A stretch of 58,405 bases of DNA from a virus. Below, in pieces: positions 25,892 through 50,727 of this stretch. Numbering within the stretch: position 1 is the first letter of the stretch; the number at the start of each line of letters is the position of its first letter. The notes beneath the pieces were generated by a model. It saw nothing but the letters and a program-made list of their open reading frames with translations. It was not told where the DNA came from and made no database searches. Both the position numbers and the translations under genes were made by a program. The stretch is taken from the IMG/VR virus record IMGVR_UViG_3300025704_000030, positions 1-58,405 of that record, one strand, 5' to 3'.

Positions 25892-25892
25892 A

Positions 25893-25977
25893 TGGTGGGG
25901 AAGTGTGGTTACGCTCCACTCCCGGTAAAAGACGAGTTTTACAGACTCGCTGCGGAAACTATCCGCTTTACTTCCCC
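25893..25977 (-). tRNA. tRNA-Tyr (GTA)
   Basis: 85 bases with a long variable arm, anticodon loop CTGTAAA, acceptor GGGGAAG/CTTCCCC, A73, CCA. The T-loop reads AGCGTAA instead of the usual TTCRANY, which is unusual. Confidence 0.88.
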
Positions 25978-25978
25978 T

Positions 25979-26134: not shown

Positions 26135-26157
26135 ATAAAACTTTTTCCTTCTTCCAT

Positions 26158-26196
26158 AAAAAAACCCCTACTAATATCGCTACTAGCAGGGGTGTG
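26158..26196 (-). terminator. Intrinsic terminator upstream of tRNA-Trp
   Basis: On the minus strand a hairpin with CCCCT/AGGGG at its base and further internal pairing is followed by seven T. It lies between the promoter at 26331-26359 and tRNA-Trp, so it would end or attenuate transcripts before the tRNA block. Confidence 0.8.
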
Positions 26197-26324
26197 TTAA
26201 AATAACTTTTCTTAACTACTACGTCAAGACACACTCCTGCCTTCGCTAAACCAGCGAATGCAATATTGTTGAATATGTTTCATCATTGTAGTCATTTCTA
26301 TTTCTCTTTGTTTAATTCTTTGTA
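26158..26324 (-). ncRNA. Candidate short leader RNA (promoter to terminator)
   Basis: Transcription from the promoter at 26331-26359 would give an RNA of about 165 bases ending at the intrinsic terminator. It contains a perfect hairpin TTCGCT-GGTTT-AGCGAA and a 23-codon ORF (26295 to 26224, beginning MTTMMKHIQQYC) with only a weak purine-rich ribosome site. This could be a small RNA or an attenuating leader for the tRNA block. No expression evidence is available. Confidence 0.45.
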
Positions 26325-26393: not shown

Positions 26394-26468
26394 TGGTATC
26401 CCGTAGGAGAATCGAACTCCTCTTTCCTGCGTGAAAGGCAAGCGTCCTAACCGATAGACGAACGGGAC
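26394..26468 (-). tRNA. tRNA-Glu (TTC)
   Basis: Anticodon loop CTTTCAC, acceptor GTCCCGT/ACGGGAT (G-U first pair), A73, encoded CCA. Confidence 0.93.
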
Positions 26469-26474
26469 AAAAAA

Positions 26475-26737
26475 CGGAAGTAAAAAAGCAAGTAATGAAC
26501 TAGACAATGTGCATTAAGGTACTTCGCATCGCGCTTCACCTTCCAAGCAATCTACAATAAGCAACATGCAGAGGGCTTGTTTATTTCCAGCAATCAAAGT
26601 GCAACTGTTCTGTAAATCTGGAGCATACAAGCACGGAGACGTTTCAAGCGTCCTGAGCTATAGTTGTTGTTTAATTTCTAGTAAACTAGAAACACGTAAC
26701 AACACGGTTGTCCATCCTCATCTCAATTTTACTTCCG
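26475..26737 (-). ncRNA. Candidate structured ncRNA, 263 nt
   Basis: A perfect 11-bp helix (CGGAAGTAAAA with TTTTACTTCCG) joins the two ends across 263 bases. Inside are a TTTCTAG-TTTA-CTAGAAA hairpin, a GACG...CGTC hairpin, an AAGGT...ACCTT helix capped by CGC-GAT-GCG, and a TGCAT/ATGCA pairing. Six T follow the closing helix just before tRNA-Glu. No coding frame of note is seen. I do not recognise the family; large ornate RNAs are known in phage tRNA arrays (GOLLD, ROOL), but identity with those is not shown. Confidence 0.6.
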
Positions 26738-26757
26738 GGTAGTTTTACTAAACTACC
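26738..26757 (-). other. Perfect 8-bp hairpin after CDS 26766
   Basis: GGTAGTTT-AGTA-AAACTACC on the minus strand, 9 bases after the stop of the 187-residue gene and directly before the 263-nt RNA. No T-run follows, so it may be a processing or stability element rather than a terminator. Confidence 0.6.
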
Positions 26758-26765
26758 AAAACCTC

Positions 26766-27329
26766 TTAGAGGATGCCTGCTCGTTCTAAGAAACGTGCTG
26801 TTTCCTCATCCAACTCAATTTCTGTTTGAACATTAAGCTCAAGCAGTGTATCCTGCAACTTCTGCTTCTGACGCTTCAAGTCAGCAACAGTGCGTTTAAA
26901 ATCTTCCACTTCTGCCTTGGTAAAGATTGAAGTGTCCACAGCTTCACGACCGTACCCGTAACGATCTTCCTTGCCGTCTTTCAACTTGGCAATCTTACCT
27001 TCAATAACAGCATCACTTAGACGAGCTGCTTTTGTAGCGTAGGTGTTGTTGAACTGGATTTCTTTCTCCAAGTGTGCAACATCTGCTAGCAAATCGTTAA
27101 TGCTTTCATCAGCATTTGCACGAGCAACTGCTTTGCGGATAGCGTATAGCGCACCCACTAGCTTGTTGCGTGTTGCACTGTGAGTTATGAATACATCACG
27201 CACAGCATCGATCTGAGCAGAGTGATCTTCAAACTCGTTAACGCTTACTGATGTTTCGAAAGTCAAACCTTTGATCATTTCGTTGATGCTGTTCTGTACA
27301 GCGTTTGCTTTGCGTAGTGTAATGTTCAT
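26766..27329 (-). CDS. Coiled-coil protein of unknown function
   Basis: 187 residues, almost entirely helical with heptad-like segments (ADVAHLEKEIQFNNTY and VEDFKRTVADLKRQKQKLQD), no cysteine cluster or catalytic motif. Its own TTGACA-N16-TATAAT promoter precedes it. It is one of the few protein genes lodged in the tRNA array, between tRNA-Asp and tRNA-Glu. Function unknown. Confidence 0.8.
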   Translation of the reverse strand: MNITLRKANAVQNSINEMIKGLTFETSVSVNEFEDHSAQIDAVRDVFITHSATRNKLVGALYAIRKAVARANADESINDLLADVAHLEKEIQFNNTYATKAARLSDAVIEGKIAKLKDGKEDRYGYGREAVDTSIFTKAEVEDFKRTVADLKRQKQKLQDTLLELNVQTEIELDEETARFLERAGIL

Positions 27330-28055: not shown

Positions 28056-28141
28056 TGGTGTCAATCGAGGAGTCGAACCTCGCCGCAGTAGGTGACATGA
28101 CGCCTGTAGTGTCTGTTACTGTTAGCGAACCCGCATTGACA
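28056..28141 (-). other. tRNA-like element without a clear anticodon arm
   Basis: A 7-bp acceptor-like helix (TGTCAAT/ATTGACA), a perfect T-arm (CGAGG-TTCGACT-CCTCG) and CCA are present. No discriminator base fits between helix and CCA, and the 50-base interior shows no normal D-arm or 5-bp/7-base anticodon arm; the best interior helix is GAC/GTC flanked by ACA/TGT. It may be a degenerate or unusual class II tRNA, or a tRNA-mimic RNA. Confidence 0.5.
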
Positions 28142-28145
28142 TATA

Positions 28146-29265: not shown

Positions 29266-29267
29266 GT

Positions 29268-29327
29268 AAACATATCCCCGATTTATCAGATTCGTTGCAT
29301 CAGCTATACTGTATGCAGGATATGTTT
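29268..29327 (-). ncRNA. 60-nt spacer RNA candidate, Asn to Ser(GCT)
   Basis: A perfect 10-bp helix (AAACATATCC with GGATATGTTT) starts two bases before the Ser gene and ends five bases after the Asn gene. Inside is TGCAT/ATGCA with CAG/CTG stacked on it, plus a weaker CGA/TCG hairpin: a small three-way junction. Confidence 0.62.
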
Positions 29328-29332
29328 AAACT

Positions 29333-29410: not shown

Positions 29411-29540
29411 AAACTCTACTTACAACTACACTGTTTGCAGACTCGAACTGCGGTTGCCCGTCGGCAAATGAGGACCACCTCACGAACGGAATCGAACCGT
29501 CTACCTCCCATTATTCACAGTGTATGTGTAAGTAGAGTTT
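29411..29540 (-). ncRNA. 130-nt RNA candidate with two T-arm hairpins in a 20-bp closing helix
   Basis: Perfect 13-bp helix AAACTCTACTTAC with GTAAGTAGAGTTT, a small internal loop, then 7 bp ACACTGT/ACAGTGT. Four hairpins fill the interior: ACGG-TTCGATT-CCGT and GCAG-TTCGAGT-CTGC, both with tRNA T-loop sequence; TGAGG-TGGT-CCTCA; TTGCC-GACG-GGCAA. It is not a tRNA: there is no acceptor with CCA and no anticodon arm. It lies two bases upstream of tRNA-Asn and would be the first stable element of the array transcript. Confidence 0.72.
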
Positions 29541-48687: not shown

Positions 48688-50727
48688 TTACTTTGTTGTA
48701 GCTACAAACACGCCATTCCAATCTTTAGGCAAATCTTGTGTTAGCATATACTCACAACGTTCAATCCACATATCGTAGTACTTTTCCATCTTGCCTTCAA
48801 ACTGTGGCTTCAACTTATTACATGATTCAATAGCTTCTTGGAATCGTTGCTGCTGATACATTTTATGCATGTCTTCATGTCTACGCTTGCTTGTTGCATA
48901 ATGTTTCTTAACATCATCTAGCACTGTGTAGATAGCAACTCCTACAGTTTTACCTTTAACTGCTAAGTCGTCTACCTTTAGGAAGAAGAAGTCTTCCTTG
49001 CACTGTTCTACAGTTGCTCCACCTACTAGTAACAAGCATCCGTATTCTTTACACTTGCTTTCTATTCTTGCTGCGGTACTGACTGCGTCTCCAAGGACGT
49101 CATAGCTGTGTCGTTTTGTGCTGCCCATCTCACCCAAGTATCCGAGTCCAGTATTGATGCCAGCGCCCATACCAACGGCAGGTCTTCCTTGAGGTATGAC
49201 AAAATCTTCATTAAACTTCTCCACTGCTTTTAGCATACGTAATCCTGTACGTACTGCTGAATCAGCATGTTTAGGATCATCTGTTGGTGCATTGTGTACG
49301 TGCATACTAGCATCGCCGATATACTTGATAACCATTCCGTCTGCATCAAGTATAGGCTGTGTAATGCTGTCCATGTACCCATTCATAATTTTAGTAAGTC
49401 CCTTTACGTCATCACCAAACGATTCGCCTAATGGCGTAAAGCCGCGCAAGTCTGAGAATACAATACTAATTTCACGTTTCATACCGTCTTTGATTAGACT
49501 TGGATTTTCTTGTAGCATACGCACAACAGTAGGGCTTGCATATCCAGCAAACTGTTTCTTAATTGCCTGCTTCTCTAGGAACTCACGTACAAACTTAATA
49601 CCGTATACCTGTAGTGCTATTAGTACAAACGTAATAACTGGCGCTGTAACGTCTAATAACAGCTTGTCTGTTGCATAAGCATACATTGAATAAGGAACTA
49701 CACTGCCTATCATCACAACAGTTGTAGCAAGTCCTACCCACAACCAACGACTTAGAAGTATAAGCAATAAACCGCCTATAGCAAGTGCTAGTAGCTCTGC
49801 TGTAGGTGCCCAGTCTGGACGCTGTATGTTTGTACCTGCAAACATTGTGCCTATTAGTGCAGCTTGTGTAGTGCCTGCGTACTGTGCTCCTGTTGCTGTA
49901 GGAATAGGATTAGCAATACCTGCTGCTGTTACATCTACAATAACTACTGCACCACCAAGGTCCTCTGGTAAGTTTGTTACGCTTACACTCTTTGAACGTT
50001 GGCTCCAATCAATCCACACACGCCCTTCACTATCAGTTGGTATTATACCAAACTGAGGAATACGCATTTTCTCAACACCAGCTGCATTTAGTTTGATTTG
50101 AAAGTTAGGGTCGCCTGCGATAACACGTAGTGTCTCAAGTGCTAGACTAGGATATAGTGTACCGTCTATGACAGCGACAGTTGGCATACGTCTTACGACA
50201 CCATCTATCTCCGGCTCTGTTGAAACGATTCCCGCACCAACACTGTTGTTTTCAAGTTCTGGTATGTTCGCAATGATACCGCCGTATGGTAGTATGCGAT
50301 CCAAGAACTGTGCTTGTAGTATTGCTGCCCCAGGATTGATGGGCTCGTTCTTTGTTTTGTCGCTGGGACGACTTGCTAGTATAACTGGATAGTCTAGCAT
50401 AGTTTCTGCTAGTTCGGCATCGCCACCTAGTCTGTCTACTTCGGGCATCATTACGTTCCATACAACTAAGCCTGCGCCTCTGTTGTACAAGTCTTTAATG
50501 ATGTCTGAGTATATGTTGCGTGGGAAAGGATATTGTCCGTACTTTTCCAATGCTGCTTCGTCTATCTCAGCAACATAGATATTATTCTCTGCTGGTTCTT
50601 GATTAACAATTAATTGGTCAAAGTAATTTAGTTTAATACTTTGTATAAAGTTATTAGGTACTGCAAATGTATACACTAATGCAGTCAGTGTAATCAATGC
50701 CCACCATGGGGATAATAATCGTTTCAT
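48688..50727 (-). CDS. CHASE2-domain class III adenylate cyclase
   Basis: 679 residues. Topology: one N-terminal helix, a periplasmic CHASE2 region (about 30-305, DEAALEKYGQYPFPRNIYSD...VVWNVMM), three helices (310-378) and a cytoplasmic cyclase domain. Metal-binding Asp426 (VFSDLRGFT) and Asp472 (KYIGDAS), and the ATP-selecting Lys468 and Asp543 (YDVLGDAV), are present, as is Arg554. The transition-state Asn is Ser550 (VSTAAR), which may lower activity. CHASE2 cyclases with FecR proteins are common bacterial partners, and a FecR gene lies nearby. Very unusual in a phage. Confidence 0.93.
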   Translation of the reverse strand: MKRLLSPWWALITLTALVYTFAVPNNFIQSIKLNYFDQLIVNQEPAENNIYVAEIDEAALEKYGQYPFPRNIYSDIIKDLYNRGAGLVVWNVMMPEVDRLGGDAELAETMLDYPVILASRPSDKTKNEPINPGAAILQAQFLDRILPYGGIIANIPELENNSVGAGIVSTEPEIDGVVRRMPTVAVIDGTLYPSLALETLRVIAGDPNFQIKLNAAGVEKMRIPQFGIIPTDSEGRVWIDWSQRSKSVSVTNLPEDLGGAVVIVDVTAAGIANPIPTATGAQYAGTTQAALIGTMFAGTNIQRPDWAPTAELLALAIGGLLLILLSRWLWVGLATTVVMIGSVVPYSMYAYATDKLLLDVTAPVITFVLIALQVYGIKFVREFLEKQAIKKQFAGYASPTVVRMLQENPSLIKDGMKREISIVFSDLRGFTPLGESFGDDVKGLTKIMNGYMDSITQPILDADGMVIKYIGDASMHVHNAPTDDPKHADSAVRTGLRMLKAVEKFNEDFVIPQGRPAVGMGAGINTGLGYLGEMGSTKRHSYDVLGDAVSTAARIESKCKEYGCLLLVGGATVEQCKEDFFFLKVDDLAVKGKTVGVAIYTVLDDVKKHYATSKRRHEDMHKMYQQQRFQEAIESCNKLKPQFEGKMEKYYDMWIERCEYMLTQDLPKDWNGVFVATTK

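Follow-up and report, generated by a model that had tools for sequence, protein, structure and literature searches.

The window is a virus record of 58,405 bases and is probably a jumbo phage fragment, because one relative (L024) is 357 kb long and later relatives measure 300-400 kb. A tRNA array, wholly on the minus strand, occupies 24.9-29.4 kb. The subject of this work is the gap in that array between tRNA-Glu and an ORF for a 187-aa protein, and what we call here the module RNA starts directly after the stop codon of this ORF (Table 1). As all adjoining tRNAs and genes lie on the minus strand, the RNA is assigned to the minus strand as well.

A conserved structured RNA in the gap

A first-pass annotation had described the gap as gene-free, closed by an exact 11-bp end-to-end helix with six T behind it, and likely to be a functional RNA of 263 nt. 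The helix and the T-run are both present, and no gene of an annotated type was found in the gap. No reading frame is common to the homologs, which differ by 1-2-nt indels, and an antisense 58-aa ORF (26566-26742) looks spurious. At least five T occupy the position after the closing helix in 21 of 49 homologs. The helix-closed stretch is real, but its 263 nt are not the full extent of the RNA, as the covariance model adds 26 nt at the 5′ end and takes in a conserved hairpin that ends near the ORF stop.

Minus-strand folding gave -73.1 kcal/mol (z -2.8), with 2 of 200 dinucleotide shuffles equally good, and plus-strand folding against such shuffles gave z -3.1. Folding energy is weak support by itself, and it is the comparative evidence that settles the reality of the RNA. 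In an alignment of 40 sequences, we tested 27 pairs in five helices (H0, P1, P2, and the two halves of P6), and 25 of these pairs change on both sides. Compensated cells numbered 201 compared with 59 ± 9 in shuffles, none of the 500 shuffles being equally good, and 93.2% of the cells were paired, a share that fell to 36-51% when the partner was slid by 1-3 columns; because related sequences contribute to these counts, the cells are not independent of one another, yet neither shuffling nor sliding came near the observed values. Conservation of the pairing in homologs, one of the points on which the functional-RNA reading had been staked beforehand, is borne out by covariation.

The module RNA keeps a conserved shape consisting of a 5′ hairpin, the long helix P1, the inner helix P2, a variable hairpin, and the long hairpin P6. 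The 5′ strand of P2 reads GATAGAC or GATAAGT in homologs. Hairpins P3, P4, and P8 differ by clade: the apex of P3 is replaced in the relative L002 and still foldable, the P4 loop CUUGAAA is common to several clades with a G-C to A-U change in L002, and P8 is missing in one clade and in the Caulobacter phages. The several internal hairpins proposed earlier are supported in general, except for the stem around 26545-26580. This candidate helix (P7) was rejected as a conserved element, as both of its strands carry invariant UG and only U-G pairs would form in clade C.

Table 1. Features of the module and its immediate surroundings in the window
Feature	Position	Strand	Sequence	Remarks
tRNA-Glu	26394..26468	-		Directly downstream; context, outside the module
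T-run after P1	26469..26474	-	TTTTTT	Possible intrinsic terminator
Module RNA gene	26475..26763	-		~289 nt, 5′ end at 26763; covariance model R1, 203 bits, E 1e-46
H0, 5′ hairpin	26738..26757	-	GGTAGTTTAGTAAAACTACC	Just 3′ of the ORF stop; two-sided changes in 3/4 pairs
P1 closing helix, 5′ strand	26727..26737	-	CGGAAGTAAAA	Two-sided changes in 8/8 pairs
P1 closing helix, 3′ strand	26475..26485	-	TTTTACTTCCG	Same helix as 26727..26737
P2, 5′ strand	26710..26717	-	GGATGGAC	97% of cells paired; two-sided changes in 5/6 pairs
P2, 3′ strand	26494..26500	-	GTTCATT	Covariation helix 3
P3, lineage-specific variable hairpin	26663..26705	-	GTGTTGTT / AAACAACAAC	Inner hairpin 26675-26692; from fold
P4, small hairpin	26638..26652	-	GACG-CTTGAAA-CGTC	Clade folds
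P6, 5′ side	26618..26631	-	CTTGTATGCTCCAG	Two-sided changes in 9/9 pairs (two half-helices)
P6, 3′ side	26576..26590	-	CTGGAAATAAACAAG	Covariation helices 4 and 5
P8, hairpin inserted in the UG ladder	26516..26542	-		Clade folds
First UG pair, in the P6 terminal loop	26595..26603	-	TTGCACTTTG	UG at 26603/26596; invariant A6 columns
Run of four UG steps, 7-nt spacing	26548..26570	-		UG at 26570/26563/26556/26549; invariant A6 columns; periodicity
Last UG pair, 7 nt apart	26505..26513	-	ATGCACATTG	UG at 26513/26506; invariant A6 columns
ORF of the 187-aa all-helical protein	26766..27329	-		Constant companion of the module RNA

The most invariant letters of the RNA are not in its helices but in UG steps exactly 7 nt apart (columns of alignment A6). 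Eight UG dinucleotides are kept in the window, grouped 2 + 4 + 2 with exact 7-nt spacing within each group, and we refer to them as the UG ladder. Among 76 non-redundant RNAs, the mean longest UG run was 4.12 at period 7 compared with 1.75-2.32 at the other periods from 3 to 15, and 70 of the 76 have at least four UG at period 7. In the clade without P8 and in the Caulobacter phages, six UG steps follow one another unbroken in one register.

Other RNA elements were noted nearby. A 62-nt stem-closed spacer between tRNA-Asn and tRNA-Ser (29267-29328, minus strand) resembles a three-way junction; in its L002 homolog (~935-995), three helices have undergone compensatory changes, and the loops UAUAG and AUCUGAUAAA are conserved. 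Another stretch of 130 nt (29411-29540, minus strand) is closed by a perfect 14-bp helix, AAACTCTACTTACA/TGTAAGTAGAGTTT, and holds two T-arm-like hairpins, GGTTCGATTCC and CAGTTCGAGTCTG. Between ORF and module RNA, L002 (2742-2876, plus strand; helix TATAGCATACTAGG/CCTAGTATGCTATA) and L033 (~2975-2840, minus strand) have a second conserved candidate RNA closed by a stem, which is missing from that place in the window. A short leader-peptide-like ORF that ends in motifs such as CIRWFSEGRSVS directly before the stop, followed by a terminator-like hairpin, is kept upstream of tRNA genes in three phages (window 26150-26290, minus strand; L002 3270-3405; L033 600-440, minus strand). The window also has a tRNA-Tyr-like gene with the anticodon loop CTGTAAA and an odd T arm (25892-25978, minus strand), missed by both ARAGORN and Rfam, and another odd tRNA-like unit at ~28058-28145 (minus strand).

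Linkage of the RNA with one protein gene

Searching with the 187-aa ORF returned one syntenic relative, L002, with the RNA at the corresponding place; compared with the window, it has long invariant runs (e.g., TCTCCGTGCTTGTATGCTCCAGATT), a closing helix with compensatory changes, and hairpins that differ at the apex. RNA pattern searches led to the 357-kb contig L024 and others, while the matches of one pattern, CTTTGATTGCTGGAAAT, were due to chance except for the known homolog. All of the first 22 loci from a protein profile had an RNA match, the weakest of which (L075) was clear with the covariance model. With an extended alignment, the protein was found in at least 373 viral contigs and in 1 of 84,980 prokaryote species genomes.

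Starting from the protein, the RNA adjoins the ORF in 64 of 66 non-cultured loci, and in the two exceptions (L117 and L125) the contig ends before the RNA could appear. Starting from the RNA pattern only, at least 120 contigs match; the RNA profile was found in all 78 loci examined and the protein, on the same strand, in 74, the RNA being near a contig end in each of the other four. The two sets share some contigs, so the tests partly overlap, and the homologs are mostly metagenomic contigs, several of them near-identical. The RNA and the gene of the 187-aa protein are one linked module, as all six exceptions are explained by contig ends.

Both genes are always on one strand, in either order (67 RNA-ORF and 7 ORF-RNA in the RNA-first set, the window itself being ORF-RNA), and usually within 250 nt of each other, although in several ORF-first lineages the RNA is ~410 nt from the ORF with a tRNA-Met in between. 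Whole-record searches found one strong RNA copy per large genome, beside the ORF. The phage tRNA array that had been proposed as its habitat is where the RNA lies in the window, and a tRNA is present within the fetched stretch in 48 of 70 loci. The remaining 22, CcrColossus included, have none, and the module RNA occurs outside tRNA arrays too.

Homologs of the protein with 23-30% identity are encoded by cultured phages, namely the Caulobacter phages CcrColossus and CcrPW and seven Brevundimonas jumbo phages. An unannotated gap of ~285-315 nt follows the protein gene in all eight cultured-phage records inspected, and these gaps fold to a common plan of a 5′ hairpin and a long closing helix. 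CcrColossus, which was left out of covariance-model building as a hold-out, gave a full-length match over its whole 280-kb genome (E 1.9e-4), in the gap 3′ of the homologous gene, gp272. The same architecture was found in the other hold-outs, CcrPW, the Brevundimonas phages, and a Salipiger plasmid, with CcrPW, Domovoi, and Kikimora recognized by gap position and ladder only and not by model score. On the plasmid, the gap behind the gene of the protein homolog (E 7e-8) is 443 nt long and shares these features, although the model match there is weak (E 0.25). Per 1000 shuffles, the observed UG run was reached 0 times for CcrColossus, 0 for CcrPW, 1 for Domovoi, and 3 for Salipiger, and Kikimora and Gurke have UG runs of six too; because all six lie outside the discovery alignment, their ladders are an independent test. 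A direct DNA similarity search of the cultured phages matched only tRNA-Glu. Elsewhere in the window (48688-50727, minus strand), a predicted cyclase protein has 52% identity to one of the Methylophilales phage Melnitz, in which the module RNA was not found.

The candidate partner protein and the possible role of the module

The AlphaFold2 model of the 187-aa protein is almost entirely helical (pLDDT 91). Pfam and NCBIfam searches returned nothing above cut-off, a PDB sequence search gave no solved relative above cut-off, and among solved structures none of a clear relative shows RNA binding. A viral structure library contains clear relatives in CcrColossus, Vibrio phage Vp_R1, and Erwinia phage pEa_SNUABM_47, with less close matches in Catovirus and Yasminevirus. 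Weak full-length matches were obtained with the phage protein family phrog_25230 (E ≤ 0.01 for 18 of 52 members, 2.9e-8 at best, and E 6e-5 to 0.05 for single proteins, again at full length), to which PHROGs attaches neither a function nor an RNA. With a median pI of 6.4, the family of the linked protein is near neutral, whereas a general RNA binder would be expected to be basic, so any RNA binding postulated for it must be specific and not general.

The best structural match in the PDB was 3kdq (Z 10.7 over 141 residues, 14% identity), which is within the chance range for helical bundles. We take 3kdq to be a member of the DIP1984 family (NF038048), and profile comparison with DIP1984 members (hhalign, probability 0.3%) gave no support for a relation. 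Neither PF20935 nor NF038048 was found in the window, nor PF20935 in the sampled module-bearing records. In a separate observation, a 24-nt non-coding element beginning AACAGGGGGTTGAAAA follows bacterial DIP1984-family genes in L171 (~2042-2065) and L172 (minus strand, ~45-68 nt past the ORF stop); the two copies are 92% identical (E 5e-6), and this is possibly another gene-linked RNA.

The consistent position of the RNA beside one small protein gene in very many large phages suggests an RNA-protein machine, and a repeated protein subunit would be expected to have a binding site of just this kind, a linear and evenly spaced track that is sequence-specific and carried by a folded scaffold. We consider it rather likely that this ~290-nt structured RNA acts in trans and works with the protein of the adjacent ORF as an RNP, with the UG ladder serving as a track of repeated binding sites. 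The helical protein would dock on the ladder in several copies, or as one oligomer, at about one per 7 nt, and P1, P2, and P6 may hold the track in place. The trans-acting role is suggested by the free gene order, the variable spacing, and the tRNA that can intervene.

Two other readings give the RNA or its ladder a different partner or place, and both appear unlikely to us. The RNA could be the cis part of the protein's own mRNA, which the protein would bind to control stability or translation. Such autoregulation could account for the adjacency, with the RNA always on the strand of the ORF and usually within 250 nt, but the side of the ORF on which the RNA lies, 3′ or 5′, varies with the lineage, and a tRNA-Met separates the two in several lineages that have the ORF first. 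In size and complexity, the RNA also goes far beyond the autoregulatory sites that are known, and it has an end helix of its own that closes it. Alternatively, the ladder could titrate a host RNA-binding protein or RNA, as a decoy or sponge, with the linked protein only assisting or stabilizing the RNA. Sponge RNAs typically present identical sites repeated along a rigid scaffold, and the UG steps, as the most invariant letters, could serve a host factor rather than the linked protein. However, no host factor that leaves a 7-nt UG footprint is known to us, and phages of distant hosts, as well as a plasmid, retain the same ladder. A sponge would also give no reason for the strict linkage to one protein, and is improbable in our judgment.

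A small protein of similar size beside an RNA with a repeated motif also recalls type III toxin-antitoxin systems such as ToxIN, in which RNA and protein are encoded side by side, and the protein could be a toxin with the RNA as its antitoxin. ToxN is a beta-barrel endoribonuclease, whereas the predicted fold here is all-helical, and its antitoxin consists of tandem ~35-nt repeats upstream of the toxin gene, whereas the module RNA is one ornate unit, which can lie on either side of the ORF and has no repeat other than the 7-nt ladder. There was no Rfam match and no conserved RNase motif was found: for the HEPN motif R-X4-6-H, several members have Met in place of the sole candidate His, and the window protein lacks the Arg. 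We regard a ToxIN-like pair as very improbable. Even less credence is given to a spacer for tRNA-array processing, a stem-closed insert that merely separates and exposes tRNA ends for RNase cleavage. The window RNA does lie in an array beside tRNA-Glu, and several other spacers of that array are stem-closed, but the internal sequence is conserved far beyond the needs of a spacer, the RNA is tied to a protein, and 22 loci have no tRNA within the fetched stretch, on which ground we set this reading aside.

Returning to the RNP of RNA and linked protein, our likeliest guess for its role during infection is in taking over or protecting translation or RNA metabolism, which is weakly indicated by the frequent location in tRNA arrays and by GOLLD as a near neighbor in several loci. 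It is possible, although we would not call it likely, that the module represents a new class of viral RNP in which a folded RNA with a UG ruler at every 7 nt would line up six to eight copies of a dedicated helical protein side by side, in unrelated jumbo-phage lineages and at least one plasmid, and possibly with a protein relative in protist giant viruses (fold matches in Catovirus and Yasminevirus only). The module RNA comes with a candidate partner protein and a structural hypothesis with a definite period of 7 nt per subunit, hundreds of natural variants offer material for covariation, and cultured carriers that grow on ordinary laboratory hosts exist, the RNA so far unannotated, in the Caulobacter crescentus phage CcrColossus and the Brevundimonas phages, where the RNA accounts for an otherwise unexplained gap in the genomes. 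It may also reveal how large phages use RNA machines.

Comparison with known RNAs and systems

At permissive thresholds, Rfam searches of the window region and of relatives returned only tRNA, GOLLD, freshwater-2, and sub-threshold noise, and in the window region no family matches the module RNA even at E 5, in agreement with the earlier remark that it has no obvious known match. ARAGORN and Rfam find the adjoining tRNA-Glu and no tRNA or tmRNA within 26475-26763. The Rfam family freshwater-2 (RF02980) occurs just downstream of the module in two clades (L097/L098 2400-2470, L114 2462-2529, L134 2935-3007, L160 2830-2902, and L122 3377-3444). Titles and abstracts on jumbo-phage noncoding RNAs and on GOLLD and ROOL do not describe the module RNA, and no paper was found that links CcrColossus with a noncoding RNA, in a literature coverage that largely leaves out subscription journals and bioRxiv. 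Within these limits, the module RNA is previously uncatalogued.

To our knowledge, few large structured RNAs of phages have a known function, and we know of no protein partner assigned to GOLLD or ROOL. The evenly spaced UG steps recall TRAP, which binds evenly spaced NAG triplets, a likeness that is analogy and not homology. ROOL is an ornate RNA of prophages and phages found beside tRNAs, and in this it resembles the module RNA, but up to E 5 its model matches nothing in the window region. The closest resemblance in setting is to GOLLD, a large ornate noncoding RNA of phage tRNA arrays. With membership set at a covariance-model score of at least 150 bits, the GOLLD model (RF02032) matches neither the window region, up to E 5, nor the homologous RNAs, whereas the same search finds GOLLD elsewhere in the arrays of relatives at 154-205 bits. 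In four of them it lies ~0.6-2 kb from the module RNA and has an embedded tRNA (L033 5164-5628, minus strand; L128 2946-3409; L120 and L113 21-429). GOLLD is much larger (416-nt Rfam model) and has no match to the module RNA in sequence or structure. It has also been reported to form RNA-only complexes (PMC12286853), whereas the module RNA is tied to a protein gene.
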